64,000 bases of DNA from assembly GCF_014863545.1 (NCBI RefSeq), contig NZ_CP062260.1, positions 1,488,001-1,552,000 on the forward strand. Direction: 5' to 3'. Every line of letters starts with the position of its first letter. The stretch's first letter is position 1. Shown one piece after another: positions 1 to 28,145 of the stretch. Source of the stretch: Paenibacillus sp. JNUCC32. Lineage in GTDB: Bacteria > Bacillota > Bacilli > Paenibacillales > Paenibacillaceae. The translations under genes were made by a program, and so were the position numbers. Under the pieces are notes generated by a model. It was not told the origin of the DNA. It saw only the letters and a list, made by a program, of their open reading frames with translations, and searched no databases.

Positions 1-1
1 C

Positions 2-619
2 CCGGCGATCAAGCAGATTGCGGATTCCAACATGCCGATCGTGCTTGTGGACAGGAAGCTGGACTCGCCGGAAACAGGATCGAAGCTCGATCTGGTGGCC
101 GAGGACAATACCGAGGGAGCCTTGCGCCTAACCCGGAAGCTGCTCGAGGAAGGACATACGGCTATCGGCGTAGTTAACGGGCCAACGAGATCAAGCACGG
201 GGAGGGAACGTCTCGAAGGCGTCATGAACGCGATGAAGGCATTTGGGCTGAACGAGGGCCCCCTGGTGTATAACGGAGATTTTTCCACGGAGGACGGAAT
301 CCGGGCAGTTCAGCAATTTCTGAACGCGGAACGCAGGCCAACCGCCATCATTTCCCTGAATAACCGCATGAGCCTGGGCGTCCTGCTCGAGATTGTGCGC
401 AGCGGCCTGAAAATTCCTGCCGACATGGCAGTTGCTTCTTTCGGCGAGGTGGAAGCCGGGCCTTTACTCAAGGAATCGGGACTCTACTACATGGAGCAGC
501 ATCCCTACGATATGGGAATCAAGGCCGGAGAAATCCTTCTAAGCCGAATACGGGAAGAAGCCCGGCAGGATCCACCGGCTTATGAAATATACAGCAATGA
601 AGTCAAACAGTTGAACTGA
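2..619 (+). CDS. LacI-type transcriptional regulator, C-terminal part (cut by window edge)
   Basis: The frame is open from base 2, so the N-terminal DNA-binding head lies outside the window. The 205 visible residues form the effector-binding domain of a LacI/GalR regulator, with short signatures such as [27 protein letters not shown] and [10 protein letters not shown] in the usual order. The stop is 33 bases before the fucI-like gene on the same strand, so it is probably the regulator of, and co-transcribed with, the sugar genes that follow. A perfect palindrome of LacI-operator type lies at 681-696. Family assignment is firm; the effector (a pentose or arabino-oligosaccharide) is inference. 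Confidence 0.85.
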
Positions 620-651
620 TCGTACATGCCGCCGCTCTAAAAACAGAGAGG

Positions 652-2457
652 ATGATGGAGATGCATAATCAATCAAACATCTGCAATCGATTGCAGAACG
701 AATTGCCTAAAATCGGCATTCGCCCTATCGTGGATGGCCGGCGGGGTGGTATCCGGGAATCGTTAGAGGATGTCACCATGGATATGGCGAAACGAACCGC
801 TCGCTTGCTCACCGAACGGCTAAGGCACAGCAACGGGCTTCCAGTGGAATGCGTGATTGCCGACACCTGTATCGGAGGGGTAGCTGAGGCCGCACGAACC
901 GAAGAGAAATTTGCCAGGGAGAATGTAGGTCTTACCATTTCGGTGACACCATCCTGGTGCTATCCGACGGAAACGATGGATACCCACCCGACCAGGCCAA
1001 AAGCAATTTGGGGTTTCAACGGGACGGAACGTCCCGGGGCCGTATATCTGGCGGCGGCGCTGGGAGCGCATAATCAGAAGGGTCTGCCGGCCTTCTCCAT
1101 CTATGGACGCGATGTACAGGATATCGGGGATACCGAAATAACGGCGGATGTTCAGGAGAAGCTTCTGCAATTTGCCAAGGCAGGCCTTGCCGTAGCGACC
1201 ATGAAGGGGACCTCCTACTTATCGATGGGCACCGTATCCATGGGCATCGCGGGCTGCATCGTCGACGAAAACTTTTTTCAGAGGTATCTGGGGATGCGCA
1301 ACGAATATGTGGATATGACCGAATTCGTAAGGCGGATCGAGCTGGAAATTTACGATCATGACGAATATGAGCGGGCACTGGCCTGGATTAAACAGAATTG
1401 CAAGCCGGGAACGGACGTTAATCCGGAGCATTTAAAGCGGTCCGAAGAACAGAAGGAACAGGATTGGGAAACCGTCGCGAAGATGGCGCTGATTGCACGC
1501 GATTTGATGGTAGGCAATCCGAAGCTGGCGGCCATGGGATATGGAGAAGAAGCGCTCGGCCGACATGCACTGGCTGCAGGATTCCAAGGACAGCGTGCCT
1601 GGACGGATTACTTCCCGACGGGGGATTTCATGGAGGCGATATTGAATTCCTCTTTTGATTGGAACGGTCTGAGGGAGCCGTATATCGTCGCAACGGAGAA
1701 TGACAATCTGAATGGAATCACGATGCTGTTCGGTCATCTCCTGACGAATGCGGCCCAGGTGTTTGCAGACGTTCGTACATATTGGAGTCCGGATGCCGTG
1801 AAGCGAGTGACGGGATACGAGCTGGAGGGCATTGCGGCCAACGGCGTGATCCACCTGATCAATTCAGGACCGGCAGCACTAGACGGAACGGGAAGGCAAT
1901 CGAAAGACGGCAAGCCGGCCATGAAGCCGTTCTGGGATATCACGCAGGAGGAAGTCCAGGATTGTCTGGATGCAGTCAAGTGGTGTCCGGCTATTGATTT
2001 CTTCCGCGGCGGGGGATTCTCCACGGACTTCACGACCCGGGGAGGCATGCCGGCAACGATCGCCAGAATCAATATGGTCGCGGGTGTCGGACCGGTCCTA
2101 CACATCGCCGAGGGAATAACCGTGGAGCTCCCGGAGGCCGTGCACGATGTATTGGACCAGCGAAGCGACCCCACTTGGCCGACGACCTGGTTCGTCCCGA
2201 ACCTTACCGGCGAGGGACTGTTCAAGGATGTTTACACCGTTATGAGTAATTGGGGATCCAACCATGCCGCCATGAGTTACGGCCATATTGGCGGAGATTT
2301 GATTACTTTGGCGTCGATGCTCCGCATTCCGGTATGCATGCACAACGTGCCGGAGGAGCGGATCTTCCGGCCAAGCGCTTGGACCGCTTTCGGCGGGCTG
2401 GAGCCGGTTTCTGCCGATTACCGGGCATGCGCGTCTTATGGTCCTTTGTACAAATAG
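652..2457 (+). CDS. fucI: L-fucose / D-arabinose isomerase FucI
   Basis: Aldose-ketose isomerase converting L-fucose to L-fuculose and, in known FucI enzymes, D-arabinose to D-ribulose. The 601 residues match the E. coli enzyme (591) along the whole length. The three manganese ligands are recognisable: Glu349 in ATEND, Asp373 in FADVRTYW and His538 in NWGSNH, equivalent to Glu337, Asp361 and His528. The C-terminus [11 protein letters not shown] is typical. Several start codons are possible (652, 655, 661); GAGAGG at 645 best suits 655 or 661. The kinase gene follows 12 bases later. No fuculose aldolase gene is present, so use on D-arabinose fits the neighbours better than L-fucose. Confidence 0.93.
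681..696. promoter_or_regulatory. candidate LacI-type operator (perfect 16-bp palindrome)
   Basis: CTGCAATCGATTGCAG is a perfect palindrome with central CG, the form of a LacI-family operator. It sits just inside fucI, about 20-30 bases after the start codons, so repressor bound here could block elongation or initiation. Eleven bases recur at 4247 upstream of the next transcription unit. Binding is inferred from shape and repetition only. Confidence 0.5.
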
Positions 2458-2469
2458 GAGGCAGATGAT

Positions 2470-4170
2470 ATGAAGCAGTTATACACCATCGGGGTTGATT
2501 TCGGTACGGAATCGGGCAGGGCCCTGCTTGTCGATATCACGACGGGCCAGGAAGTAGCGACGCATGTGACGCCTTACGCGCATGGAGTCATGGACGAGGT
2601 GCTGGTCCATTCGGGTTTGAAGCTGGAGCCGGATTGGGCGCTGCAGCATCCAAAGGATTACTTGGAGGTTCTTAGGCAATCGATCCCCCGCGTGCTGTCG
2701 GATGCAGCGATATCGGCTGATCAAGTCATCGGCATTGGCATCGATTTTACGGCATGTACGATGATGCCGCTGGATGCAGGCGGGACCCCGCTCTGTATGA
2801 CGGAGGAATGGAGGGACCATCCGCACAGCTGGGTGAAGCTGTGGAAGCATCATGCGGCGCAGGAAGAAGCGAACCTGATCAATGCAGCCGCAGCTTCGCG
2901 GGGCGAGAAATTTCTTGCGCGTTATGGAGGAAAGCTGTCCTCCGAGTGGATGCTTGCAAAGTGTTTGCAGATTCTGAGGGAAGCTCCCGAATTATATGAA
3001 CGGTCCGTGTTGTTCATGGAAGCTGCCGATTGGGTGGTCATGCAATTGACCGGCCAGCTCGCGCGAAGCAGCTGCACCGCCGGCTATAAAGCCAATTGGC
3101 ATAAACGGGAGGGTTATCCGTCCAAGGCGTTCCTGCATTCGCTCGATCCAAGGTTCGGAAATCTCGTCGAGACGAAGCTGAGAGGAGCGATCAAGCCCCT
3201 GGGTTCGAAAGCAGGCGGATTAACCGAAAGTATGGCGGCGATGACGGGGCTTCTGCCGGGAACCGCGGTAGCCGTAGCCAACATCGATGCCCATGCGATG
3301 GTACCGGCCGTCAGCGTCGTAACCCCGGGGAAGCTGGTACTCGCTATGGGAACCTCTACTTGTCACTTGATTTTAAGCGACAAAGAAGTGACCGGCGAAG
3401 GCATTTGCGGCGTCGTCGAGGATGGGATCATTCCCGGTTATTACGGGTATGAGGCAGGACAATCGGCCGTTGGCGATATATTCGCCTGGTATGTGGATGA
3501 GGCAGTTCCGGAATACGTTAGGCTTAAGGCTGCAGAAGAGCGGCTTGGCGTTCATGAGTGGCTCGAGAAGGAAGCGGCCCGATACGCGCCTGGACAAAGC
3601 GGACTGCTTGCCCTGGACTGGTGGAACGGAAGCCGTTCCGTGCTGATGGATGCCGATCTTAGCGGCGTCATGCTTGGTTTCACCTTGCAGACCAAGCCGG
3701 AGGAGATTTATCGGGCCCTGCTCGAAGCCACAGCCTTTGGTACCCGGGCTATTATCGAGGCGTTTACCGATAGCGGCATTGAAGTTCAGGAGCTTTATGC
3801 TTGCGGCGGATTGCCGCAGCGCAACCGGCTGCTGATGCAGATTTATGCCGACGTTACCGGCAAAGAGATCAAGATCGCGGATACCGTCCAGACGGCCGCT
3901 TTTGGCGCAGCCATGTTCGGTGCGGTTGCGGCAGGCAAAGATCAGGGAGGATATGGCAGCATCGTGGAAGCTTCGGAGGCGATGGCCCGCGTTCGGGAAG
4001 AAACATTCAAGCCGATTGAAGCTAACGTCCGAATGTATGACCTGTTATACAAGGAGTATAAAGGACTTCATGATTATTTGGGCAGGGACGAAAATGGGGT
4101 GTTGAAACGGCTGAAAGCGTTAAGAAGCAGTTTTAACTCTGAAGGATCAACGGATTCGGCCCGAGGATAG
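2470..4170 (+). CDS. araB: ribulokinase-type FGGY carbohydrate kinase (AraB-like)
   Basis: ATP-dependent kinase of the FGGY family, here read as phosphorylating a ketopentulose. The 566 residues equal the usual AraB length. The N-terminal phosphate-binding stretch [13 protein letters not shown] (residues about 8-20) and the C-terminal nucleotide-site ACGGLPQRN around residues 444-452 are clear, as are AraB-specific blocks [10 protein letters not shown] and MGTSTCHL. E. coli AraB phosphorylates all four 2-ketopentuloses including D-ribulose (established). Paired with FucI, the likely product is D-ribulose 5-phosphate, which needs no aldolase to enter the pentose phosphate pathway. It lies 12 bases after fucI. 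Confidence 0.88.
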
Positions 4171-4191
4171 ACAACGGGTTATGACTCACAT

Positions 4192-4235
4192 AAGGAATGC
4201 AGGCTGTCGTGTTGGTAGCATGGCCTGCATTCCTT
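4192..4235. other. perfect 13-bp stem-loop downstream of the kinase gene
   Basis: AAGGAATGCAGGC (4192-4204) pairs perfectly with GCCTGCATTCCTT (4223-4235) around an 18-base loop. There is no T run after it, so it is either a weak terminator or an RNA-stabilising structure separating fucI-araB from the glycosidase genes. Confidence 0.55.
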
Positions 4236-4246
4236 AACCACCCATT

Positions 4247-4295
4247 CTGCAATCGATGTCACATTGTTGGCAAATTGTTTTAAGAAGCGCTTTTA
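4247..4295. promoter_or_regulatory. candidate operator pair upstream of the GH172-GH183 unit
   Basis: CTGCAATCGATGTCAC at 4247-4262 shares its first 11 bases with the perfect palindrome at 681-696. About 20 bases on, TAAGAAGCGCTTTTA (4281-4295) contains the AAGCGCTT core seen in LacI/CcpA operators, although it fits the cre consensus poorly. Both lie within 85 bases of the start of the first GH172 gene. The sites are visible; binding is inference. Confidence 0.42.
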
Positions 4296-4328
4296 CCTAC
4301 GCCATCAACTTATGAGGAGCGATCATCC

Positions 4329-5438
4329 ATGGACAATCAAACAGCGTTATTTTCACTCAGCCGCAAGCGATCCGGAAAAAGAAAAAGGGAATCCAGCTAC
4401 GACCGTTCGGGAGGGAATAAGGATTACTTCTCCATCCAGCCGGGCGACCTGACCGAAATTTGCAGCATTCCGGGAGCGGGTGCCATCACCCATATTTGGA
4501 TGACCATGGCGACCGACGCCCCTGCCGAGGAATTGTATCTGCCGCGCAAAGTCGTACTCCGCATGTACTGGGACCAGGAGACCGAGCCCAGCGTGGAAGC
4601 GCCGATTGGCGATTTTTTCGGAATGGGGCACGGCCTCACCAAAAATTATACGTCAGCGGCGTTGATGATGAGTCCCGAGGACGGCAAAGCATTCAACAGC
4701 TTTTTTCGCATGCCGTATGGGAATGGCGCTCGTATAACGATCGAGAGCGAAGCGGAGCATCCGATTAAATTTTATTTCTATGTGGACTATGAATCGTACG
4801 ATAAGCTGCCCGAGGAGGAGCTGCGATTCCATGCCCAGTGGCACCGGGAAAATCCGACCGACGGGATCGCGGATCACGGGGTGGATAACGCTTTCTACGA
4901 ATTCGGCGGCAAGAATACGACGGGCAGCGGCAACTATGTCATTTTGGACGCGGTTGGGAAGGGCCATTACATCGGCTGCAACTTCAATGTCCATAACCTC
5001 CGCGATACGCGGGAATGGAACTGGTACGGCGAAGGAGACGACATGATCTTCATCGATGGGGAGCCATGGCCTCCGACTCTGCACGGCACGGGCATGGAGG
5101 ATTATTTCAATACGGCCTGGTGTCCGCAGCAGGAGGTGTGCACCCCGTATCATGGCATCATTATGGGCGGCGGCCCGAACTGGAGCGGAAAAATCTCCAC
5201 GTACCGGTATCATATCCTGGATCCGATCATGTTCGATAGCAGCATCAAGGTCACGATCGAGCACGGTCATAACAATCATCGGAGCGACGATATTTCCTCG
5301 ACGGCGTACTGGTACCAGGCGGAACCCCATCGTTCTTTCCCGAAGCTGCCAAAGGTGGATAAACGCTTGCCAATGCCGGATACGAAGCCGCTCAATCCTG
5401 CTAGTTTGAATCAGATATTCGGTCATAACAATCCCTGA
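4329..5438 (+). CDS. GH172 (DUF2961) glycosidase, first copy
   Basis: Family GH172, the former DUF2961, which includes exo-alpha-D-arabinofuranosidases and difructose-anhydride enzymes. The 369 residues carry the family blocks GAGAITHIWMT, GDFFGMGHG, FFYVDYE, GTGMEDYF (Glu257, a probable catalytic glutamate) and the ending STAYWYQ. There is no signal peptide or membrane segment, so it should act in the cytoplasm on imported oligosaccharides. The start is supported by AGGAGC eight bases upstream. A GH183 lipoprotein gene follows 47 bases later and a second GH172 lies at 14348. Alpha-D-arabinofuranosidase is the favoured activity because of the FucI and GH183 neighbours; fructan-type activity is the alternative. 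Confidence 0.88.
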   Translation: MDNQTALFSLSRKRSGKRKRESSYDRSGGNKDYFSIQPGDLTEICSIPGAGAITHIWMTMATDAPAEELYLPRKVVLRMYWDQETEPSVEAPIGDFFGMGHGLTKNYTSAALMMSPEDGKAFNSFFRMPYGNGARITIESEAEHPIKFYFYVDYESYDKLPEEELRFHAQWHRENPTDGIADHGVDNAFYEFGGKNTTGSGNYVILDAVGKGHYIGCNFNVHNLRDTREWNWYGEGDDMIFIDGEPWPPTLHGTGMEDYFNTAWCPQQEVCTPYHGIIMGGGPNWSGKISTYRYHILDPIMFDSSIKVTIEHGHNNHRSDDISSTAYWYQAEPHRSFPKLPKVDKRLPMPDTKPLNPASLNQIFGHNNP

Positions 5439-5485
5439 TGTTCACGGGTGGAATATAGGAATCCACAATCAGATCGAAAGGGGAG

Positions 5486-6607
5486 ATGAGCTTGAAATGG
5501 AAAAATGCCCTCTTCGCAGGCATGATTTTGCTGTTATGCGGCTGCGCGGGGGGCGGCAAGGTGAATCCTCTGCTTGATGCGACAGACAAAAGCTTTTTAT
5601 TAAAAGGCATGACCGGCGTGGAGCAGGTTTCGCAATTAACCGGGGAATCCTCCCCCAATCGTACCGATCAATACGCCGTGTACGGCACCGATCTGGGTTC
5701 CATGATGAATGACGGGGAACGAACTTACTTCGTGTTCGGGGATACGTTCGGCGAGAGGGCGACTGATCAGACAGGCGGAGGGGGAAGCTATTGGCGCTCC
5801 AATACGATAGCCTATACAACGGACGCTCATCCGGCTGACGGTATCGCATTCGAGGGAATGATCACGGATGAATTCGGCACGGCGAAGGAACTGCTGCCTT
5901 CCGCCAAAATCGATTACGAAGAAATGACGAAAATTCCGACCCATGGCATTGCGGCAGGCGGCGCCTTGTATTTGCACTACATGTCGGTCAACCATTGGGG
6001 CAATCCGGGGAAGTGGGACGCCAATTACAGCAGCGTGGCCAAATCGACCGATAACGGTGAAACCTGGGAGCTGCAGGACCGGCTCCGTTGGCCGGGAGAC
6101 AGCAATTTCATCCAGGTTAGCCCCTATAAGGTGGAGAATGAAGCAGGCGGTTCGGATATTTATTTTTGGGGGATTCCTTCGGGCCGCTTTGGCGGCGTTC
6201 AGCTTATGAAGGTGGGCGAGGAGCACATCGAGAATATGTCCGAGTACCGATATTACAGCGGATTGAACGATGACGGCAGTCCCAGGTGGAGCGCGGATAT
6301 GAAGGATGCCAGGTATGTGGTGGATGACACCGTCGGCGAGCTGTCCGTAGTGTGGAATTCTTATCTGGAACGCTGGCTGATGACCTATTTGAAGGAAGGC
6401 CAAGGGGTTGTCATACGTGAAGGCATGACGCCTTGGGGGCCATGGGGCGAGCCCCTGGATTTGGTCCGAGCCGAGGATTATCCGGGGCTATACGGGCCCT
6501 ATATGAACGATCGGTATACGGAGAATGACGGGCAGACGATCTATTTCACATTGTCTTTATGGGATCCCTACAATGTTTTCTGGTTTAAGGCTTCGCTCGA
6601 AAAGTGA
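5486..6607 (+). CDS. GH183 (DUF4185) lipoprotein, probable endo-D-arabinanase
   Basis: Family DUF4185, now GH183, whose characterised members are endo-alpha-D-arabinanases with a five-bladed beta-propeller. The 373 residues begin with a lipoprotein signal (lipobox LCGC, Cys20), so the enzyme is anchored outside the membrane. Family motifs are YGTDLGSM (Asp69), FVFGDTFG (Asp86), YWRSNTIAYT and a repeated blade pattern ending in ERWLMTYL; the two aspartates are likely active-site residues. GGGGAG abuts the ATG at 5486, so TTG 5492 may be the true start. It is the only glycosidase of the locus with an export signal, which suits a first, extracellular polymer-cutting step. Confidence 0.87.
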   Translation: MSLKWKNALFAGMILLLCGCAGGGKVNPLLDATDKSFLLKGMTGVEQVSQLTGESSPNRTDQYAVYGTDLGSMMNDGERTYFVFGDTFGERATDQTGGGGSYWRSNTIAYTTDAHPADGIAFEGMITDEFGTAKELLPSAKIDYEEMTKIPTHGIAAGGALYLHYMSVNHWGNPGKWDANYSSVAKSTDNGETWELQDRLRWPGDSNFIQVSPYKVENEAGGSDIYFWGIPSGRFGGVQLMKVGEEHIENMSEYRYYSGLNDDGSPRWSADMKDARYVVDDTVGELSVVWNSYLERWLMTYLKEGQGVVIREGMTPWGPWGEPLDLVRAEDYPGLYGPYMNDRYTENDGQTIYFTLSLWDPYNVFWFKASLEK

Positions 6608-6630
6608 GGCGCGGATTCCAAGAATGATCG

Positions 6631-6656
6631 GTTTAAATGCGGACCAGCGTTTAAAT
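6631..6656. repeat. direct repeat GTTTAAAT upstream of the sugar-binding protein gene
   Basis: GTTTAAAT occurs at 6631-6638 and 6649-6656, 18 bases centre to centre, 27 bases before the binding-protein start. It could be a regulator site or AT-rich promoter elements for extra expression of the binding protein. Only the repeat itself is certain. Confidence 0.3.
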
Positions 6657-6682
6657 AGTTTGATCCATTATAAGGAGGGTTC

Positions 6683-8083
6683 ATGATGCAGAAAAATACC
6701 ATCGGCTTCAAATCCTGGCCTGTTCTGTTCTCCGTTGTTCTTGTTCTGGCGATGCTCGTTACGGGCTGCGGCGGACGATCTGGCGGTCCCGGAGGAGGAG
6801 CTTTAAGCAATCCACCGGAAAATGAAAGCGCAAACAACGGGAATGAAGCCAGCGGCAAGGTTGTGATCGATTTCTGGGCGCAAAAATTCGAGGATACCAC
6901 CGATGCCTGGTTCAAGAAATGGGTCGGCGAGTTCAATAAATCCCAGAGCGAGGTTGAAGTGAAGCTGACCATCGTTCCGGCCGACGCCTGGGACCAGAAG
7001 ATGAAAGCAGCGCAGGCCGCAGGCAAGGCACCGGACATCCGAACGATCAACTACGGCAATGTGGCCAATGCGGCAAAAACGGGTCAACTGATGGCCCTGA
7101 ACGATTTAATGGAGCCTTCAGCCTTCGATGATTTGTACGACAATATGAAGGACTTCGTATCCGTTAACGGTCAGTACTATGCATATCCGAAGCTGGTTGA
7201 GCCGTCTGCTGTGATGTTCTATCGGAAGGATATGTTCCAGGAAGCCGGGCTTGACCCCAATCAGCCGCCGAAAACATGGGCTGAGCTTCTGGATGCGGCC
7301 CAGAAGCTCACCAAGAAAGGCGTGTTCGGCTTATCGATTGCGCAAACTGCGCCGGATCTGGGCTGGTCGAGCTGGGGCCTGCAGTATAACGGGGCAGGTC
7401 ATCTGGCGGTTACGGAGGACTGGTCCCAAGCGGACGTGAACAATGACGGTTACAAGGCCGTTTTGGACTTTTACCAAAAAGCGTACCAGTCCGGCGTCAT
7501 GCCGAAGCAGGCATTGGCCGGATATGCGGACATCAAGCCTTTCGGCGAAGGCAAGATCGCCATCCAGATTTGCGGTTCCTGGGCGATCGGTCAGCTTCGC
7601 AACACCTATAAAGACATGGTGGATAAGGTAGGGATTGCGCCGATGGCATCGATGGACGGCGATTTGACGAAGCCGACGGCAACGCTCGGCGGCTGGTCGC
7701 TGGCGGTGGACGGCAAATCCGAGCATCCGCAGGAATCGGCCGATTTCATCTCCTATTTGCTCGCAGGCGACCCGAACATCATGATCGATTTTTTCAAGAC
7801 GTCCCAGTTCTCCAAGTTCTCCCCGCGCAAATCCGTGGACGAAGCGATGAAATCCGATCCGGATGCATCCAAGGATGAATGGCGTGCACTCGTATCCGAG
7901 CGGATCATTCCGCATTCGCAGGCTGAGCCAGTTTATCCGTGGGACATCAGCTTCGCGCTCGCCACGTCCATCGAGTCCGCCATGAAGGGTACTTCGGTGG
8001 ATAAGGCGCTGGCGAAGGCAGAGAAAGACATTAACGATTTCATCGCGAAGAATAAGCTTGCCGGTACGAATCCGAAAAAATAG
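6683..8083 (+). CDS. carbohydrate ABC transporter substrate-binding lipoprotein
   Basis: Solute-binding protein of a family 1 (MalE-like) sugar importer. The 466 residues start with a lipoprotein signal ending LVTGC (Cys29) and a Gly/Ser-rich linker, then a domain beginning VVIDFWAQKFED. Typical family blocks include GKAPDIRTI, YAYPKLVEPSAVMFYRKD and FGEGKIAIQICGSWAIG. A clear AAGGAGG-type site precedes the start. It is followed by two permease genes and sits between glycosidases, so its ligands are probably arabino-oligosaccharides released by the GH183 enzyme. A stem-loop after the gene may keep its mRNA more abundant than that of the permeases. Confidence 0.92.
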   Translation: MMQKNTIGFKSWPVLFSVVLVLAMLVTGCGGRSGGPGGGALSNPPENESANNGNEASGKVVIDFWAQKFEDTTDAWFKKWVGEFNKSQSEVEVKLTIVPADAWDQKMKAAQAAGKAPDIRTINYGNVANAAKTGQLMALNDLMEPSAFDDLYDNMKDFVSVNGQYYAYPKLVEPSAVMFYRKDMFQEAGLDPNQPPKTWAELLDAAQKLTKKGVFGLSIAQTAPDLGWSSWGLQYNGAGHLAVTEDWSQADVNNDGYKAVLDFYQKAYQSGVMPKQALAGYADIKPFGEGKIAIQICGSWAIGQLRNTYKDMVDKVGIAPMASMDGDLTKPTATLGGWSLAVDGKSEHPQESADFISYLLAGDPNIMIDFFKTSQFSKFSPRKSVDEAMKSDPDASKDEWRALVSERIIPHSQAEPVYPWDISFALATSIESAMKGTSVDKALAKAEKDINDFIAKNKLAGTNPKK

Positions 8084-8088
8084 TGTTG

Positions 8089-8137
8089 GCAGCCGTCCGG
8101 AAATCCGGTTTTCGAAATGTTATTTTCGGATGGCTGC
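8089..8137 (+). other. intercistronic stem-loop between binding protein and permease
   Basis: GCAGCCGTCCGGAAA (8089-8103) pairs with TTTTCGGATGGCTGC (8123-8137) with two interruptions. Hairpins at this position in sugar ABC operons usually allow partial read-through or protect the binding-protein message. No T run follows, so full termination is unlikely. Confidence 0.55.
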
Positions 8138-8167
8138 TTCATCCTTGGCCAATGGTGGTGACGCTAC

Positions 8168-9055
8168 ATGTTCAAGAAAAATTATCGGCAGGACAACGGC
8201 GTGGCTTACATGCTGCTCGCTCCCATCGTCATCCTGCTGACCGTCTTTGTCATCATTCCGTTCTTCTATGCACTGCGGGTGAGCTTCTATAATTGGAGTT
8301 TCTATCAGGATTCCACCTTTGTGGGCTTGCAGAATTTCTATATGGTGCTGACCGATGACCTCTTTCTCCAATCCATCTGGGTAGGGCTTAAGTTCGCGCT
8401 GATGGTCGTTCCGACGATGCTGATTCTCTCGTTTCTGTTCGCGAACATCATTAAGAATCTGGGCTCCGGTTTCGCAAGCGTTGTTAAGACTTCCGTCTAC
8501 ATTCCCACCATTATTTCCGGAATCGTGGCGTCGGTCATCTTTGTCTTCATCTTCGATTATGCCGGAGGCCTGGCCAATTACATCATCGGGCTGTTCGGAT
8601 CGGAGCCGAAAGCCTGGCTTGCCGACGTGGCAACGGCGCTGCCGAGCATCGCGGCTCCAGCCGTGTGGCTGGGCTTCGGACTCACGACGCTCATCATGCT
8701 GGCAGGCCTCCACGATATCCCAAAAAGTTACTATGAGGCTGCCGAACTCGAGGGGGCGGGCACCTTCGTTCGCATGTGGTACATCACGATTCCGCTCATG
8801 CGCAATGTGATCCTGTATCTGCTCGTAACCGGATTTACGGCGCAAATCTCCCAGTTCGAGCTGTCCCTCGTCATGACGGGCGGCGGCCCGCTCAGCGAGA
8901 CCACGACGCCGAACCTCTACATCCTGAACCACTTCCGAAACGACGTCATGGTCGGGAACTCCATCGCGGCATCGCTGCTGTTGTTTGTGGTCCTTGGCAG
9001 TATTTCGGCCATTATCTTCAGAGTACTGAATTCGGAAAAAGCGATCGACGGATAA
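8168..9055 (+). CDS. sugar ABC transporter permease (MalF/UgpA type)
   Basis: Integral membrane component, 295 residues with six predicted transmembrane segments, the first at about residues 16-38. The cytoplasmic EAA loop that docks the ATPase is present as YYEAAELEGAGTFVRMW near residues 190-206. A second permease follows 17 bases after the stop, and the binding protein precedes it. No ATPase gene accompanies the set; in Gram-positive bacteria such importers commonly share a MsmX-type ATPase encoded elsewhere (established pattern, inferred here). Confidence 0.92.
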   Translation: MFKKNYRQDNGVAYMLLAPIVILLTVFVIIPFFYALRVSFYNWSFYQDSTFVGLQNFYMVLTDDLFLQSIWVGLKFALMVVPTMLILSFLFANIIKNLGSGFASVVKTSVYIPTIISGIVASVIFVFIFDYAGGLANYIIGLFGSEPKAWLADVATALPSIAAPAVWLGFGLTTLIMLAGLHDIPKSYYEAAELEGAGTFVRMWYITIPLMRNVILYLLVTGFTAQISQFELSLVMTGGGPLSETTTPNLYILNHFRNDVMVGNSIAASLLLFVVLGSISAIIFRVLNSEKAIDG

Positions 9056-9072
9056 GAAGGCAGGAGGATAAC

Positions 9073-9900
9073 ATGATGAAATCGTTAAACGGTGTCCAAA
9101 AAACATTGATGACGCTCTTGACCGGACTGGTGACGATCATGGCGCTGTTCCCGCTGCTCTGGGTCATCATTGCCGGTTTCAAAGATAAGGCGGAGGTGCT
9201 TGCAACGCCGTTCCGTTTCTTCCCGAAGAAATGGATGGTTCAGAATTACACGGATATTCTGAGCGACGCGACCTTCATTCAATCGATGCTGGTCACATTC
9301 GGGGGCGCCGTTCTCTTCGCGGCGCTGAGCTTGGCCGTGAACGCCACCGCGGCTTACGTTTTCGCCAGGCTGGAATTCAGGTTCAAGACGATGCTGTGGG
9401 TTTATGTCATCGTCACCATGTTCATTCCAGGCATGGCCATTCTGCTGACCTCCTTCATTGTGGTGAATGAGATGGGAATGCTCGATACGCTGGCGGTGCT
9501 CGTATTGCCCGGCATTGCTTCCGCGGGTCATATGTTCTTCATCCGCCAATTCTACTTGAATATTCCGATGGCGCTTGAAGAGGCGGCGCTGATTGACGGA
9601 GCAGGAAGGATCAAGATTTTTACGCATATCTTCATTCCAATGTCGTTTCCGGTCTTCGTCATCGTGGGCATAGGCTCCTATTTGGCCTATTGGAACTCCT
9701 TCGTATGGCCGACGATGACGATCACCAACCCGGAGCTCTTTCAAATCATGCAATATTTATACACCTTCCGTTCCGAACGGGCAACCGAAATGGGCATGCT
9801 GATGGCCGGATCGGCGCTTTCCTGCCTGCCGACCATTATCTTGTTCCTCTTCTTCCAGAAGCACATCATTTCAGGAATCAAAATCTCCGGTTTGAAGTAA
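9073..9900 (+). CDS. sugar ABC transporter permease (MalG/UgpE type)
   Basis: Second permease of the importer, 275 residues, six membrane segments, with the EAA loop EEAALIDGAGRIKIFTHI. ATG 9073 is chosen because AGGAGG lies at 9062-9067; the frame is open further upstream but overlaps the first permease without its own site. It ends with the common GIKISGLK-type C-terminus. The DUF6259-like gene follows 29 bases later, so importer and intracellular glycosidases are probably one transcript. Confidence 0.92.
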   Translation: MMKSLNGVQKTLMTLLTGLVTIMALFPLLWVIIAGFKDKAEVLATPFRFFPKKWMVQNYTDILSDATFIQSMLVTFGGAVLFAALSLAVNATAAYVFARLEFRFKTMLWVYVIVTMFIPGMAILLTSFIVVNEMGMLDTLAVLVLPGIASAGHMFFIRQFYLNIPMALEEAALIDGAGRIKIFTHIFIPMSFPVFVIVGIGSYLAYWNSFVWPTMTITNPELFQIMQYLYTFRSERATEMGMLMAGSALSCLPTIILFLFFQKHIISGIKISGLK

Positions 9901-9929
9901 CATTCTAAGCCAACAGGTGGAGGTGGGGC

Positions 9930-12155
9930 ATGATTATACTTGAGAACAGGCATATCCGGCTGGAAATCAGCGAGATTGACGGCACGGTTCGAGGCATTCG
10001 CGATAACGTTAGAGGAATCGGGCTTATCGCGGATACGGGCACGGCGGATCCATTTCGCTTGGAGACGGACGCGGGTTTCAGCAGCTCCTTTCAGAACTTC
10101 GGATGGAGCAGGGAAAATACGGAAGACGGGACAGATCAGGTTCAGTTGAGCTGGGACACGCAGCAAGGTATGATCGTCACGGCTTCCGTAAAGCTCGCAG
10201 AAGAAGCGGATTGCATTGAATTCCGATGCGCAGCAGAGAACCATTCGGGAATCCGATTGCTGAGCCTGGAATATCCGGTTATTCCGAATTTGACCACGAT
10301 CACGGAGCACGGCGAGGAGGATTATATCGCCCATTCCTTTGCAACCGGCTTTGAGGTCAACAACCCGATGAAGGTATTTGAAACGGACGGAATCGGATTT
10401 CGTTTCATGCCGTATCCGGAGAGCTTTTCCGGGGCAACGATGCAGTTTTTTGCCTATTACGGCAAAGACAGGGGCGGGCTGCAACTCGCTGCCCTGGACG
10501 GCGAGGGCCATCCGAAATGGCTCAATTTCTTCAAGAACGGGAACGGCTTGCTGGAAGCCTCCGTGATCCATGGCTGCAGTGATATGGGACCCGGCAAGGG
10601 GATCAAGCCGCATTATCCGGTGCAAGTGTCGATTCTGTCAGGAAGCGGCTGGTACGAAGCTGCTGACCGGTACAAGTGCTGGGCCGTGCAACAGAAGTGG
10701 TGTAGACGCGGCAAGCTTTCGGAGAGGGCTGCGAAGGAAGGCAGTCCATGGCTGCATGAGGATATGGGCGCGGCAACCTTCGGTATCAATGCGGGATCGG
10801 ATCGTACGGCATGGATACAACAATACCACGACAGCATCGGAACGCCGATGCTCCACATCCTGGGCCCCGATTGGACGCATCGGCCGCAAACCTTCGGCAG
10901 CGGCGTGCCGGGGGGATATGATGATTGGTTTCCGACCCGCTTCAACCCAGAAAACATCGCTCTGATCCGAAAGCTGGGCCATCGCTTCGCTCCGTTCGAA
11001 TTCGATTACCTTTATCATTTTGACGGAGCCGACGGAGAGCTTGGCAGAGCAGCCGAGCAGAAGTTTCCCGAGCTGAAAAAAAGCGTGGATGCTTACCGCT
11101 TTCCGTTCCTTTGTCCGGCGCATCCGTACACCCACGATTTTCATGTGAGGCGGGATACGGCACTGCAGCAGAGCGATGACATCGATTCGATCTACTACGA
11201 TATCTCCGCCAACAACATTCTGAAGATCTGCATGGATGACAGCCACGGTCATCCGGTCGGAGCCGGCAGCATCATTGAGGAGGCTTACCGGCGGAACTTT
11301 GCCGATACGAAGGCGGCCATGTGCGAAACAGCCGGACGCTATATCCCCATGGGAACCGAGATGATGAATGAAACGATGCTGGATCTGATCGACTACTATC
11401 AAGCCCGGGCAGGGGGGCAGCCGGCGGCGCCGCTCGAAGGATGGCCGATCCGGGAGCTGCTTAAAACAGGTGCGGCCTATCTCATCCCGATGTTTACTTA
11501 CGTATATCACGAGTACGGCGCGCTGAGATTGGACGGCTGGGGCAAGCTGACCGAGGAAATCGGAGAGCTTTACTATTTTACGGTAGCACGCACGTATCTC
11601 TGGGGCGGCCTGTACGAATTGAATTACGAGTACAGTCCGATGGAGGCGCTGGACGGCAACGAAAATACCGCGGAGGAGCATTATTATCCGTTTGAACCGC
11701 GCGGGTATGCCTTCTCGGCGAACAGGGCCGATTACTTGGCTCTGTATGCACGGCTGCGAATCGGTGCCGCGAAGCCGTATTGGTCGTATGGCACGATGCT
11801 TCGGCCGCTCTCCTTCGACGTTCCTATGACGCCGATGAAGTGGTTTCATTACAACCACGGCAAGGATACGCCGGAATATAACAATTCGGGAGAACTGCTG
11901 ACAGACGCCGTTATCCACTCGGCATGGCAGAATGATCAAGGGGATGTCGGCTTGTTCTTTGCGAATGTGACCGGAGAGGAGCAGACAATAAGCATCGAGC
12001 TCCGTCCGGAAGACTTCGGAAAGACGACCGTGACCGGGCAGCTGTACACGAAAGCGGGAGAGCCGGCCATTGATTGCTCCATGGAACAAGGCGGATTGCG
12101 TTTGCTTAAGCTGCCGGCACGAAGCATAGCGATGTTGGAACTGACTTCGCCTTAA
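9930..12155 (+). CDS. DUF6259-like protein, putative cytoplasmic glycoside hydrolase
   Basis: A 741-residue protein without signal peptide. The N-terminal 270 residues look like a beta-sandwich (glycosidase supersandwich style), followed by a TIM-barrel-like region and a short C-terminal beta domain that closes LLKLPARSIAMLEL. Acidic residues at barrel-strand ends, Asp424 in IYYDIS and Glu477 in PMGTEMMNE, could be nucleophile and acid/base. The layout resembles DUF6259 proteins, which have no settled activity that I know of. Preceded by a GGTGGAGGTGGGG site and embedded between an importer and a GH172 gene, it probably removes a specific linkage or side group from imported arabino-oligosaccharides. 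The activity is not recognised. Confidence 0.6.
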   Translation: MIILENRHIRLEISEIDGTVRGIRDNVRGIGLIADTGTADPFRLETDAGFSSSFQNFGWSRENTEDGTDQVQLSWDTQQGMIVTASVKLAEEADCIEFRCAAENHSGIRLLSLEYPVIPNLTTITEHGEEDYIAHSFATGFEVNNPMKVFETDGIGFRFMPYPESFSGATMQFFAYYGKDRGGLQLAALDGEGHPKWLNFFKNGNGLLEASVIHGCSDMGPGKGIKPHYPVQVSILSGSGWYEAADRYKCWAVQQKWCRRGKLSERAAKEGSPWLHEDMGAATFGINAGSDRTAWIQQYHDSIGTPMLHILGPDWTHRPQTFGSGVPGGYDDWFPTRFNPENIALIRKLGHRFAPFEFDYLYHFDGADGELGRAAEQKFPELKKSVDAYRFPFLCPAHPYTHDFHVRRDTALQQSDDIDSIYYDISANNILKICMDDSHGHPVGAGSIIEEAYRRNFADTKAAMCETAGRYIPMGTEMMNETMLDLIDYYQARAGGQPAAPLEGWPIRELLKTGAAYLIPMFTYVYHEYGALRLDGWGKLTEEIGELYYFTVARTYLWGGLYELNYEYSPMEALDGNENTAEEHYYPFEPRGYAFSANRADYLALYARLRIGAAKPYWSYGTMLRPLSFDVPMTPMKWFHYNHGKDTPEYNNSGELLTDAVIHSAWQNDQGDVGLFFANVTGEEQTISIELRPEDFGKTTVTGQLYTKAGEPAIDCSMEQGGLRLLKLPARSIAMLELTSP

Positions 12156-12164
12156 CTTGGCACA

Positions 12165-14333
12165 ATGACGCGGTTTTCTGAGGCGGAGGATGATAGAAAT
12201 TGGGGCGGCGACGTCGGACAATTGGATCAGATTGACGATTTCAGCCTGTTAAAGAATGGACGACGTGTCGCTGGCGGGGATTTCTTGCCGGAAAACGAGC
12301 AGAATGGAGGACTTATGGCACAATTACCGGACGCTTATGTAAAGCGGTGGGATTATGACCAATTAGGGAGTGCAGCTCCCAAGCTGAGTCTTAAACAAAT
12401 CGATAAAGGCACTTATCACTGCATAATGACATTTGAGCTGGATCAGGAGATACGACAGGATGATTGGCAGCTGCGCCTGGAGCCTGCGTTCCAGCCGTAT
12501 TTTCACTGGGCTCCTCATATAACGCCGACTTCCCGGCATGTGATGGATCAGCACAGCTTTCGGTCGCCTGCCCTCATTGCTCATGACGGCACCAGACTGC
12601 TCACACTGATACCGGATCTGGATCTGATCGCGAAGGATGCGGACGCTCGTTGGTACTTGGATCTGGATGCTCCGAACAACCAATTCGTCTTGGGAATGAG
12701 CCGGACCCGTGTGAGTGATCACGTGCTGTTTGAGAAGGTGGAGGGTGCTGCTTATTCGCCCGGAACGTTCTGCATCGGCTTCTACCTCATGACGTTGGAG
12801 GATGATCAAGCTGCATTGAACCCCTGGCGGCCGGTGCTGCAATTTTTATGGGAGCGATGGGGTCACTCCCGACTCCGTCAGGGCATCCATGACAGAGCTC
12901 CTCTCGAACACTATGTAAAATATGCGTACGACTGGGCTTTTCGCCATTGGAAAGATACGGTGTGGCAGGAATTCGAATGGAACGGACTGAAGGTCGGGGC
13001 TCCCGTATTCATTGCCGACGTGAGTCAAAGCCCGAATTATCCTGGCGTTCCGAACGAACGGGAAAGCCGATCGATTTGGAACCAAGCGTGGTTCAGCTCC
13101 CTTCGTTCGGCGCAAGGCCTCTATCGTTACGGTAAGAAACAGGATGATCCGGAACTGGTTCGCAAGGCCAGGCTCATGAAAGAGCTGGCTCTTGCTGCTC
13201 CGCAGCGAAGCGGGTTCTTTCCCGCCGTTATTGCGACGGAGATGAAGCGGGTGATGGTGGAGGGACAGGAAGTTAACCGGTCAGGTAGTTGGGACCATGC
13301 CTTCTGGGGGAATTCCAATCGCAATCCGGCCGATCCTTGGGGCTCGATCGCGGAAGCGCCTTACCATGTGCTGGACATGAGCTGGACGGCGCTGCTCATG
13401 CTTCGCTGGCATGATGAAATCGAGCCGGATCCAAGGCTCATGGAATACGCCGTACGCTATGCGGATGAGCTTCTGGCTCTTCAGGACGAGAAGGGCTATT
13501 TTCCGGCCTGGCTTGACCAAGAGACGTTAGCGCCGCTGGATATTCTTCGAGAGTCTCCGGAGACGTCGCTCTCCGTCACGTTTTTGCTGAAGCTGCACGA
13601 CATGCGGCCGGATCCCAGATATTTGGAAACGGCAGTAAGGGCGCTGGAGGTTGTCGTCAACGAGATCGTACCGTCCGGCAGATGGGAGGATTTCGAGACG
13701 TATTGGTCCTGCTGCTCCTTTGGCCGCGAAGAGCTCCCCGGCTGCAAGGTGGTTAGGAATAACATGTTCAAGCAGTGCAATTTCTCCATGTTCTGGACGG
13801 CGGAGGCCTTATTTCAGATGTACAAGACGACCGGCGAGATGCGATATCTGACACTCGGCACACGTGTGCTGGATGAAATGCTGATGACGCAAGCCTCCTG
13901 GCAGCCTCCCTATCTGTATGTTGACGTATTGGGCGGATTCGGCGTCATGAACTGCGACGGGGAGTGGAATGATGCGAGGCAAAGCCTGTTTGCAGAGCTG
14001 ATCCTTCAATACGGCGTGGAATTGGACCAGCCGGAATATATTGAACGCGGTGTTGCCGCATTGCAGGCCTCTTTTGCCATGATGTATTGCCCCGAGAATA
14101 TAAAAACAAAACAGCAGTGGGAACGGGCGTATCCTTTCTTTAACGAGAAGGATTACGGCTTCATGATGGAGAATTACGGTCATGACGGCGATGTAGGTGA
14201 GGACGGGCGGGGCATGGGGACTTTCACCATTTTTGATTGGGGGAACGGCGCGGCCGCCGAAGCTTACCTGCGGATCAAGGCCCATCTGGGTCAGACGTTG
14301 AAAGACCGGTACGGATACGATATCACACACTAA
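12165..14333 (+). CDS. uncharacterised six-hairpin-like protein of the arabinan locus
   Basis: Unrecognised 722-residue cytoplasmic protein. The first 250 residues look beta-rich; from there repeated amphipathic helices (for example AFRHWKDTVWQEFEWNG, SLRSAQGLYRYG, MSWTALLMLRWHDE) suggest an alpha/alpha toroid of the six-hairpin glycosidase kind. A cysteine cluster (Cys516, Cys517, Cys527, then KQCNFSMFW) could bind metal, as cysteines do in GH127-type arabinofuranosidases, but the GH127 motifs themselves are not seen. ATG 12165 has no ribosome site; ATG 12315, preceded by GGAGG, is a rival that would remove 50 residues. It begins nine bases after the DUF6259-like gene. A role on beta-D-arabinofuranosyl ends is only a guess. 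Confidence 0.55.
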   Translation: MTRFSEAEDDRNWGGDVGQLDQIDDFSLLKNGRRVAGGDFLPENEQNGGLMAQLPDAYVKRWDYDQLGSAAPKLSLKQIDKGTYHCIMTFELDQEIRQDDWQLRLEPAFQPYFHWAPHITPTSRHVMDQHSFRSPALIAHDGTRLLTLIPDLDLIAKDADARWYLDLDAPNNQFVLGMSRTRVSDHVLFEKVEGAAYSPGTFCIGFYLMTLEDDQAALNPWRPVLQFLWERWGHSRLRQGIHDRAPLEHYVKYAYDWAFRHWKDTVWQEFEWNGLKVGAPVFIADVSQSPNYPGVPNERESRSIWNQAWFSSLRSAQGLYRYGKKQDDPELVRKARLMKELALAAPQRSGFFPAVIATEMKRVMVEGQEVNRSGSWDHAFWGNSNRNPADPWGSIAEAPYHVLDMSWTALLMLRWHDEIEPDPRLMEYAVRYADELLALQDEKGYFPAWLDQETLAPLDILRESPETSLSVTFLLKLHDMRPDPRYLETAVRALEVVVNEIVPSGRWEDFETYWSCCSFGREELPGCKVVRNNMFKQCNFSMFWTAEALFQMYKTTGEMRYLTLGTRVLDEMLMTQASWQPPYLYVDVLGGFGVMNCDGEWNDARQSLFAELILQYGVELDQPEYIERGVAALQASFAMMYCPENIKTKQQWERAYPFFNEKDYGFMMENYGHDGDVGEDGRGMGTFTIFDWGNGAAAEAYLRIKAHLGQTLKDRYGYDITH

Positions 14334-14347
14334 AGGAGCGATTACGG

Positions 14348-15430
14348 ATGATGAACTTTAACGGGCTCAACATGCATCTCGGAAACTTATCCAAGCTGTC
14401 TAATGCGAAGACGAGATCCATCAGCGCGGAGAATTTTACCGGCGAGAAAGGAAAAGGGGGCATGGCGACGGACGGCACGGGTGCAGCGGCTTCCAGGGAT
14501 CTGGGCGCGGGCTGGAAGGTGTCTCCTTCCGTGGAGATTATGCCGGGAGAAACCTTTACTATGGGTGACATTCAAGGCCCTGGGGCCATTCAGCATATTT
14601 GGCTGACCTGTCATCCGTCGCTGTGGCGCAATATGATTATCCGCATGTATTGGGACGAAGAGCAGGACCCTTCGGTTGAGGTTCCGGTGGGCGATTTGTT
14701 CTGTAACGGGTGGGGTGAACGTAGCGATGTCAATTCGATTCCGGTTGCCGTCAATCCGGCCGGCGGCATGAACAGCTACTGGCAGATGCCGTTTCGCAAG
14801 CAAGCCCGATTGACGATGGAGAATCGCGCGCCGGAAAAGGCGGTCCTTTACTACCAAATCGACTATACCCTGACGGACATCCCCGAAGAAGAGGCTTATT
14901 TTCATGCACAGTGGCGGAGAACGAATCCCGTTCCTTATAAGGACGTTTACACGATCCTGGATGGCGTGAAGGGACAGGGGCACTATGTAGGGACTTACCT
15001 AGCCTGGCAGGTGAACAACAGCGGCTGGTGGGGCGAAGGGGAGATCAAGTTTTATATGGACGGGGACCAGGATTACCCGACCATCTGCGGTACGGGAACG
15101 GAGGATTATTTCGGCGGAGCTTGGAACTGGGAACAGCCGATCGGTACGTACCGAACCTACTCGACGCCTTATCTGGGGATGCACCAAGTGCTGAAGCCGG
15201 ACGGATTATATCGCAGCCAGCAGCGCTTCGGCATGTATCGATGGCATGTCATGGATCCGATCCGCTTCCAAAGCGATCTTCGCGTCACGATCCAGGACCT
15301 CGGCTGGAGGTCAGGAGGCAGATACCTGCCGCAGCAGAGCGATATTGCATCGACGGCGTTCTGGTATCAGGCGGAGCCCCATGCGCCATTCCCGGAACTA
15401 CCGGATAACGATGAGCGGGAGGTTATATAA
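14348..15430 (+). CDS. GH172 (DUF2961) glycosidase, second copy
   Basis: Second DUF2961/GH172 enzyme, 360 residues, clearly homologous to but diverged from the copy at 4329. Shared blocks are GPGAIQHIWLT, RMYWDEEQDPSVEVPVGD, HAQWRR, GTGTEDYFGGAWN (Glu252 as probable catalytic residue) and STAFWYQAEPHAPFPELP. No signal peptide. AAGGAG lies nine bases before ATG 14348, just after the stop of the preceding gene. Two non-identical copies in one locus suggest different linkage preferences, for example alpha-1,5 versus alpha-1,3 branches, which is inference. Confidence 0.88.
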   Translation: MMNFNGLNMHLGNLSKLSNAKTRSISAENFTGEKGKGGMATDGTGAAASRDLGAGWKVSPSVEIMPGETFTMGDIQGPGAIQHIWLTCHPSLWRNMIIRMYWDEEQDPSVEVPVGDLFCNGWGERSDVNSIPVAVNPAGGMNSYWQMPFRKQARLTMENRAPEKAVLYYQIDYTLTDIPEEEAYFHAQWRRTNPVPYKDVYTILDGVKGQGHYVGTYLAWQVNNSGWWGEGEIKFYMDGDQDYPTICGTGTEDYFGGAWNWEQPIGTYRTYSTPYLGMHQVLKPDGLYRSQQRFGMYRWHVMDPIRFQSDLRVTIQDLGWRSGGRYLPQQSDIASTAFWYQAEPHAPFPELPDNDEREVI

Positions 15431-15528
15431 GCAGGCGCTATTGCTTAGCTTCCGGTATGGTGATAGTGTGAAGCCATGGACCCTTTTGCATCTGCTTGTC
15501 GGTTTCATGGTCGTTAATGGAGGATAGG

Positions 15529-16542
15529 ATGGACAAACATACAATTTATACCATTGCAGATCGGGTAGGCGTATCTCCTTCCACGGTGTCCAGAGCCTTG
15601 TCGGGGAGAGGTTACTGCAGTCCCAAGACGAAGAGCAAAATTCTGGCGGCTGCCCAAGAAATGAACTATGCGCCCGATCATGCAGCGAAGATGCTGAAAA
15701 TGAGGCAAACCAATAAAATCATTTTTGCCGTTCCGGATATATGCAACCCTTTCTATTTCGATATGATCAACGGCATCAATCAGGTGCTGGAGGAGCATGA
15801 TTACCTGATGATTCTGTTCTACACCAAGCACAGGCTCCAGGAGGAGATGAAGGCGATCCAGACGCTTCGGGAAAACGTCGCCGACGGCATGATCATGGTG
15901 TCTTTCGATTTTGGAGAAGAAAATATCGGGGCTATCAATGCGCTGCAGGCTCCGGTCGTGCTGACGAATAAATACGTGTCGCCGGATGGCAGCGACCGCT
16001 TTGACTACGTATATGTGGATACGTATGACGGAATCAAGCAAAGCACGGAGCATCTGATCAAGCAAGGCCTGCGCAGCATCGCCTATGTCGGCGGTAATCT
16101 CAGCGAGCAGACCGGCCATGAGCGGTTCTGCGGGTATCGGGATGCCATGCTGGAGGCAGGAATCCCCTTGATTCCTCGTTTTATCGCCGAATCCGACTAT
16201 ACGGAAAGCGGCGGTTATGCGATGGCGAAAGCGTGGCTGCAAGGGCCCGACCACCCGGAGGGCATCGTTGCCGCGAACGATCTAATGGCGATCGGCGTCA
16301 TGAAAGCTTGCGAAGAAGCCGGATTAAAAATTCCCCATGACGTTGCCGTTGTGGGCATGGATAATCTGGACATTGCCTCCCGCGTATATCCCAAGCTGAC
16401 GTCCGTTGCTTTGCAGCAGGAGGAAATCGGCCGCAAAGCGGCCCAGATCCTGATGGATCGCATAATGGGAATTCCGAGGGAGGAGCGGGCCGTGAAATTG
16501 ATGCCGCAGATGGTCGTGCGCGATTCCAGCGTAAAGATATGA
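15529..16542 (+). CDS. LacI-family transcriptional regulator
   Basis: Complete 337-residue LacI/GalR regulator. The N-terminal head has the canonical helix-turn-helix YTIADRVGVSPSTVSRAL (about residues 6-23) and hinge, and the effector domain follows (KIIFAVPDICNPFYFD, PEGIVAANDLMAIG, DVAVVGMDNLDIA). ATG 15529 is chosen for its GGAGGATA site; the open frame upstream is not supported. It closes the D-arabinan locus about 100 bases after GH172-2, giving the locus a LacI regulator at each end, perhaps for two inducers or two nested controls. Confidence 0.93.
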   Translation: MDKHTIYTIADRVGVSPSTVSRALSGRGYCSPKTKSKILAAAQEMNYAPDHAAKMLKMRQTNKIIFAVPDICNPFYFDMINGINQVLEEHDYLMILFYTKHRLQEEMKAIQTLRENVADGMIMVSFDFGEENIGAINALQAPVVLTNKYVSPDGSDRFDYVYVDTYDGIKQSTEHLIKQGLRSIAYVGGNLSEQTGHERFCGYRDAMLEAGIPLIPRFIAESDYTESGGYAMAKAWLQGPDHPEGIVAANDLMAIGVMKACEEAGLKIPHDVAVVGMDNLDIASRVYPKLTSVALQQEEIGRKAAQILMDRIMGIPREERAVKLMPQMVVRDSSVKI

Positions 16543-26545: not shown

Positions 26546-26611
26546 GTCAGCCGAGAACCACTGGAAAAAATGATATCGGAAATGTAGTCAATGAAAAGTG
26601 AGGAATTCTAA

Positions 26612-27484: not shown

Positions 27485-27520
27485 ACGAAGCATCAAGCAT
27501 GCAGGGAGGACGCCATGTAA

Positions 27521-28093: not shown

Positions 28094-28145
28094 TTAAAGT
28101 TTGGAACAAACCATAACATAGGTTGACGAAGAAAGGACAGTCGCC

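Follow-up and report, generated by a model that had tools for sequence, protein, structure and literature searches.

Introduction

How might a bacterium of the Bacillota degrade D-arabinan, a hallmark of the mycobacterial cell wall for which few cutting enzymes have been described? This question is raised by a gene cluster in a 64,000-nt stretch of the 7.0-Mb genome of Paenibacillus sp. JNUCC32 (G000:C1:1488001-1552000; the whole stretch is called the window below), which encodes members of glycoside hydrolase (GH) families 183 and 172, a sugar importer of the ATP-binding cassette (ABC) type, the isomerase FucI, an AraB-type kinase and LacI regulators. An initial annotation had read these genes as a route from D-arabinan to D-ribulose 5-phosphate. 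Our analysis supports this reading, since catalytic residues are kept, characterised D-arabinan enzymes are close, FucI and AraB are dedicated paralogues, and the operon and its predicted operators are conserved. We put the probability at about 0.86 that the locus is a regulated operon for the catabolism of D-arabinan or D-arabinan oligosaccharides.

Results

Positions 1-16542 of the window, together with about 0.45 kb upstream, form a single operon on the + strand, in the order LacI1, FucI, AraB, GH172a, GH183, binding protein, two permeases, DUF6259, U722, GH172b and LacI2, with gaps of about 12-159 bases between genes (Table 1). The contiguity first proposed was thus borne out: the named genes are co-directional, FucI, AraB, both GH172 copies, GH183, SBP_bac_8, DUF6259 and LacI2 pass curated Pfam or NCBIfam cut-offs, and there are two LacI regulators, LacI1 being cut by the window edge. 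The protein first described as having 722 residues (U722) is present and is most likely shorter, as a probable ATG start at 12315, preceded by GGAGG, gives 672 residues, and close homologues are also of about 672 residues. Protein N-termini read by eye carried lipoprotein signals in GH183 and the binding protein and none in GH172a, GH172b, DUF6259 and U722. A secreted GH183, an importer, intracellular exo-enzymes, an isomerase and a kinase, the combination of a Gram-positive-type D-arabinan locus, are therefore predicted to occur together, with localisation judged by eye and the ATPase encoded elsewhere.

A profile check of the kind suggested with the initial annotation placed both DUF2961 (GH172) copies and the DUF4185 (GH183) protein above their Pfam cut-offs: GH183 matched PF13810 at 304 bits (cut-off 39.5), and the GH172 copies matched PF11175 at 283 and 330 bits. 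GH183 aligned with EndoMA1 at 194 bits, and in this alignment, with positions counted by hand, the catalytic D33, D51 and E243 (EndoMA1 numbering) and the ligand residues W138, P141, R198, L292 and Y293 were all identical; the roles of these residues are those given in published passages. Its two closest matches, 87-88% identical, were from Paenibacillus lautus. Both GH172 copies keep both catalytic Glu residues (counted by hand), whose roles are described for DgGH172c in passages of PMC10115798.

The target may instead be some other glycan that contains D-arabinofuranose, for example an O-antigen or a pilin glycan, and not mycobacterial arabinogalactan or lipoarabinomannan. According to passages of PMC10115798, GH183 enzymes are not equally active on arabinogalactan, lipoarabinomannan and oligosaccharides of pilin. 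However, the solved proteins nearest to GH183 and GH172b are from a degrader of mycobacterial polymers, and we regard such a target as somewhat unlikely.

Specificity of the GH172 enzymes bears on a second alternative, in which fructofuranosides are their substrates or the locus is one for L-arabinan use. GH172b scored 481 bits to ExoMA1 against 160 to alphaFFase1, which published passages describe as a GH172 alpha-D-fructofuranosidase. GH172a scored 291 bits to 4kq7 (a hypothetical protein), 276 to 8ah3, 254 to alphaFFase1 and 141 to ExoMA1; 8ah3 is labelled DG02479, which agrees with the locus number of DgGH172c, an enzyme reported to be active on pNP-alpha-D-Araf (p-nitrophenyl alpha-D-arabinofuranoside). 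A published section states that Asn253 of ExoMA1 excludes fructose and that alphaFFase1 has Gly299 there. At this position GH172b has Asn as in ExoMA1 and GH172a has Cys as in 8ah3, and a motif scan of related operons showed Cys in GH172a-type and Asn in GH172b-type proteins caught by it. We infer that the Cys of GH172a favours D-arabinose over fructose. The family does include a fructofuranosidase to which GH172a scores 254 bits, and the model matched by AraB is that of an L-ribulokinase. However, the Gly of alphaFFase1 is absent from both copies, the operon has no araA or araD and the genome keeps a separate L-arabinose operon, and GH183 and FucI would have no place in fructan use. Fructan or L-arabinan as the substrate is thus very improbable.

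D-arabinose as the released sugar is also indicated by FucI and AraB, which pass the cut-offs of TIGR01089/NF008220 (1019 and 1074 bits) and TIGR01234/NF003154 (722 and 756 bits), respectively. Both are second copies. The other FucI of the genome, 69% identical, lies in an L-fucose-like operon with a class II aldolase and a rhamnulokinase-like kinase (both names assigned below NCBIfam cut-offs); the other AraB, 67% identical, lies in an L-arabinose operon with L-arabinose isomerase (AraA), AraD, a GntR-type regulator and an alpha-L-arabinofuranosidase. AraB-type kinases accept D-ribulose. Because the operon has these second copies and no araA, araD or aldolase, it is most naturally read as converting D-arabinose through D-ribulose to D-ribulose 5-phosphate, and published passages support action of FucI enzymes on D-arabinose.

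The operon also carries conserved motifs. Upstream of LacI1, the tandem motif GTAATCGTTTACGTAATCGATTAC (L012:17550-17573) comes after TTGACA and TAATCT, which are 18 bases apart and were recognised by eye. This motif occurred at one place in the genome at up to 3 mismatches, as did a reversed control, and was found with 0-4 mismatches in all six loci having that region. Within fucI, at its 5' end, lies the perfect palindrome CTGCAATCGATTGCAG, the sole exact match in the genome, with three further places at 2 mismatches and none for the control; it stands at the same fucI position in five of the six testable operons (L130 is the exception). Each of 16 loci, from 14 genomes, has a copy with 0-4 mismatches upstream of GH172a, and per locus at most 2 of 200 mononucleotide shuffles did as well. 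Allowing mismatches, the fucI motif was weakly over-represented in the window (8 matches, a number equalled in 5 of 100 shuffles), and promoter and terminator scans stayed at shuffle level (15 versus 13.7 and 16 versus 15.4). These conserved motifs are likely LacI-type operators, as predicted from sequence; the assignment of LacI1 and LacI2 to the two motifs is our inference.

Conservation of the operon was surveyed in 392 genomes of the order and 100 relatives. GH183 matches were found in 33 of the former (29 above cut-off) and 5 of the latter (4 above cut-off). Nineteen neighbourhoods were fetched, 18 around GH183 and one for P. rhizosphaerae. Among all the loci of this study, L013 and L148 belong to one genome, as do L020 and L144. 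An operon with DUF6259 was present in 16 of them (L129, L135 and L138 are without DUF6259 and were excluded), which with the window gives 17 operons. GH183 of the window's type occurs in 16 of the 17, the copy of L136 being split across two frames and L134 having only divergent copies, and at least one GH172 occurs in every one. A second operon form (L128, L130-L134 and L136) is marked by additional, divergent GH183 genes and by a zinc alcohol dehydrogenase of about 330-357 residues, whose family was confirmed in all seven loci; an ExoMA2-like GH116 is present as well in L131, L133 and L136. One operon (L139, genome G350) shares with the genome of the window an upstream phosphotransferase-like gene (417 bits, named by eye). 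The patchy occurrence of the operon and its guanine-plus-cytosine (GC) content, which is 54.3% where the surroundings have 49-50%, would fit horizontal gain.

Removal of beta-linked ends has no assigned enzyme, because a GH116 search (PF04685) gave no match in the genome of the window, while the same search matched 21 of 34 genomes, 17 above cut-off. Two uncharacterised proteins of the operon are candidates for this step.

The first, DUF6259, passes the Pfam cut-off for its domain. When the 392 genomes were searched with a DUF6259 alignment, with at most two candidates scored per genome, a strong match (>1100 bits) was found in 16 genomes and only a weak one (<=122 bits) in 13. Strong matches occurred in 16 of 18 genomes with full-length GH183 (>190 bits) and in none of 374 others (Fisher p = 1.4e-26, a statistic that ignores shared ancestry). 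Moreover, a DUF6259 copy sits no more than a few kb from GH183 in each of the 16 genomes, and G331 carries a further copy on a different contig. Among 31 members, weak matches to GH38C (8) and GH30C (3) were seen. Searches among solved structures, by single sequence and by profile, yielded no usable match for DUF6259, and no paper naming DUF6259 was found among open-licence PubMed Central papers. A Clostridiaceae stretch (L060) holds LacI, DUF6259, importer genes, GH172a and U722 with no GH183 match, and perhaps belongs to an oligosaccharide scavenger.

The second, U722 of the window, has no Pfam family above cut-off. Among 38 members, weak matches to GH88 (31) and GH127 (19), and also to C5-epimerase and others, suggest by weak similarity a protein of (alpha/alpha)-barrel type. 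Assignment to GH127 was rejected, as PF07944 scored 20.3 bits over a short stretch (cut-off 24.9) and hhalign gave 1.7% to one GH127 protein; assignment to GH116 was rejected at an hhalign probability of 0.8%. Searches of solved structures with single sequence and profile returned nothing usable for U722. There were 1373 relatives among 8000 scored candidates, and loci were taken for the best 80 of 258 relatives, some with short flanks. Within about 10 kb, GH172 was found in 57 of these 80 and GH183 in 22; at least one of GH172, GH183, FucI and AraB was near in 65 and none in 15. At >=200 bits the corresponding loci numbered 49 with GH172, 13 with GH183 and 56 with at least one of the four. 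Two tallies of neighbours of hand-picked loci gave DUF2961 in 7 of 90 (of 120 neighbours listed) and 25 of 78 (of 143 listed). On a quick tree with operon labels set by hand, U722 entered or left the operon in five changes, at least four of them forced, and therefore behaves as a movable module. Relatives 56-58% identical occur in Lokiarchaeota, Acidobacteriota and Aminicenantes assemblies (L051, L063, L064, L069, L072, L076 and L080). In Cohnella lubricantis (L024), an exception to the D-arabinan link, U722 adjoins AraB and L-arabinose isomerase.

Across the 17 operons, U722 is in or near 10 (in G081 about 11 kb from the nearest GH183), an ExoMA2-like GH116 is in 3 (G359, G305 and G378), and both together are in none. 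The GH116 of G359 scored 697 bits to ExoMA2 against 97 to beta-glucosidases, and the G305 and G378 copies are 71% identical to it. The chance of zero overlap is 0.05, so this mutual exclusion is no more than suggestive. Four operons have neither close by. In G331 both U722 and GH116 are on another contig, as is U722 in G381; in G161 a remote U722 relative (587 bits) sits about 9 kb off on the opposite strand, and in G320 remote relatives are found elsewhere. In addition, a GH116 of a different kind is encoded about 19.5 kb from GH183 in G371, and in G336 GH116 is on other contigs. Among the 80 U722 loci, 15 hold GH116 and U722 together, 14 of Bacteroidota and the Neobacillus locus L029, and strict replacement of GH116 by U722 is weakened by them. 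The GH116 of L047, the one among these 15 compared with ExoMA2, scored 378 bits to it against 36. In L029, DUF6259, U722, LacI, a divergent GH183 and GH116 lie together.

DUF6259 might be a cytoplasmic exo-beta-D-arabinofuranosidase standing in for GH116, with U722 as an accessory protein, a role that we rate as less likely than not. DUF6259 is in all 17 operons, though its presence helped define this count, and independently it follows full-length GH183 across the 392 genomes. The four operons without GH116 or U722 close by still have it, its weak GH38C and GH30C matches fit a glycosidase, and the genome of the window has no GH116. However, it also occurs in the three GH116 operons and in Neobacillus L029, where it would be redundant, and no link to a solved structure was found. 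Alternatively, U722 might be the exo-beta-D-arabinofuranosidase, of a new (alpha/alpha)-barrel family that replaces GH116. The exclusion in the 17 operons, the frequent vicinity of GH172 and the weak GH88 and GH127 matches agree with such a role, but the 15 joint loci, the AraA and AraB neighbours in C. lubricantis and the 15 loci with none of the four genes nearby do not. With L029, which also has DUF6259 and GH183, as a counterexample within the Bacillota, we consider this alternative doubtful. At nearly even odds, DUF6259 (this subfamily) and U722 are new D-arabinofuranoside-specific glycoside hydrolase families, one of them an exo-beta-D-arabinofuranosidase unrelated to GH116.

Two genes upstream were rejected as members of the operon, neither matched in the 19 neighbourhoods: a ThuA gene, and a GH127 gene at L012:9161-11041, about 6.6 kb upstream of LacI1 with other genes intervening. 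Farther along the window, GC content falls to 0.42 at 26001-30000, compared with about 0.50 in most of the remainder.

Table 1. Genes and predicted operators of the locus, in window coordinates
Feature	Position	Strand	Remarks
LacI1, LacI-family regulator, 3' part	1..619	+	Cut by window edge; full gene L012:17612-18619, begins 389 bases ahead of window
FucI, L-fucose/D-arabinose isomerase, operon-specific second copy	652..2457	+	NCBIfam cut-offs
CTGCAATCGATTGCAG, perfect palindrome, likely LacI-type operator	681..696	.	Inside 5' end of fucI
AraB-type ribulokinase, operon-specific second copy	2470..4170	+	NCBIfam cut-offs
Degenerate CTGCAATCGATTGCAG copy, 3 mismatches	4247..4262	.	Upstream of GH172a
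GH172a (DUF2961), predicted cytoplasmic exo-alpha-D-arabinofuranosidase	4329..5438	+	DgGH172c-like, Cys at specificity position; Pfam, alignment
GH183 (DUF4185) lipoprotein, predicted surface-anchored endo-D-arabinanase	5486..6607	+	Pfam; signal judged by eye
SBP_bac_8 lipoprotein, sugar-binding protein of importer	6683..8083	+	Pfam; signal judged by eye
MalF-like permease	8168..9055	+	Named from size and position; no NCBIfam match at 1e-30
MalG-like permease	9073..9900	+	Named from size and position; no NCBIfam match at 1e-30
DUF6259 protein, candidate exo-glycosidase	9930..12155	+	Pfam; no signal peptide by eye
U722, 672 aa from likely start	12315..14333	+	Weak similarity to several (alpha/alpha)-barrel-type families; GH172-associated in several phyla
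GH172b (DUF2961), closest to ExoMA1	14348..15430	+	Asn at specificity position; start 14348 or 14351
LacI2, LacI-family regulator	15529..16542	+	Pfam; start 15529

Discussion

The gene content, conserved catalytic residues, dedicated paralogues, motifs and co-occurrence described above suggest the following pathway. GH183, a lipoprotein anchored outside the cell, would make endo cuts in alpha-D-arabinofuranan, and the binding protein and two permeases, powered by an ATPase encoded elsewhere, would bring in the oligosaccharides. Alpha-D-arabinofuranose would be stripped off in the cytoplasm by the two GH172 enzymes, while DUF6259 and/or U722 may take off residues that GH172 cannot, most likely beta-linked D-arabinofuranose ends. 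FucI would then convert D-arabinose to D-ribulose, and AraB D-ribulose to D-ribulose 5-phosphate. LacI1 and LacI2 are expected to repress the operon by way of operators that lie ahead of lacI1, at the beginning of fucI and ahead of GH172a, and induction is likewise presumed.

Several observations weigh against this pathway. The genome has no GH116 for the beta ends, and no ABC ATPase is among the operon genes, two MalK-type matches lying elsewhere in the genome. FucI and AraB occur together in 8 of the 17 operons; 8 others lack both in the fetched stretch, although L142 shows a weak kinase match of 89 bits, and the L134 stretch breaks off inside AraB. Two genomes with full-length GH183, G146 and G153, have no strong DUF6259 match, G153 having a weak one. 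The alphaFFase1 score of GH172a nearly equals its DgGH172c score and exceeds its ExoMA1 score, and the operon AraB could still prefer L-ribulose. Of the first description of the locus as complete-looking, the gene set stands, while completeness is unproven in view of the missing GH116, the distant ATPase and the 8 of 17 operons with FucI and AraB.

The locus extends D-arabinan catabolism to Bacillota and, via co-occurrence and gene order, ties two uncharacterised protein groups, DUF6259 and U722, to it. It also names a short list of genes that could fill in breakdown of beta-capped D-arabinan. If DUF6259 and U722 are new families of the kind described above, Bacillota would have met the task of D-arabinan breakdown with their own set of exo-enzymes.

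Comparison with known systems

The initial annotation had considered an importer-based Bacillota version new. As to the importer, this does not hold: passages of Shimokawa 2023 (PMC10509167) propose for Microbacterium a GH183 outside the cell, ABC import, GH172 and GH116 inside the cell, and an isomerase and a kinase, and call this importer-based design typical for Gram-positive bacteria. They also report DUF4185 in 2225 species, 1476 of them Actinobacteria, so that phyla beyond Actinobacteria were already implied. As to the Bacillota locus, no earlier report was found among open-licence PubMed Central papers, and the main text of Al-Jourani 2023 (PMC10115798) contains no word beginning Firmicutes, Bacillota or Paenibacillus.

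Within the same genome, the L-arabinose operon has a homologous kinase and the L-fucose-like operon a homologous isomerase, but the former keeps AraA and AraD and the latter an aldolase, none of which the D-arabinan operon has. The D-arabinan polysaccharide utilisation locus (PUL) of Microbacterium arabinogalactanolyticum, as described in passages of PMC10509167, resembles the present one in secreted GH183, intracellular GH172, an ABC importer with SBP_bac_8, isomerase and kinase. It is actinobacterial, with four GH183 genes and a GH116 exo-beta-D-arabinofuranosidase, whereas the Paenibacillus locus has one lipoprotein GH183, two GH172, DUF6259, U722, FucI and AraB paralogues and two LacI regulators, in a genome without GH116. 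PUL42 of Dysgonomonas gadei (Bacteroidota), from passages of PMC10115798, likewise has GH172 and GH183, and an abundant fucose isomerase. Other Dysgonomonas loci (L047 and L081, not D. gadei itself) have a U722 homologue near GH116 and GH172 and no DUF6259 match. To these systems the present locus adds its occurrence in Bacillota, together with its set of enzymes and its regulators.

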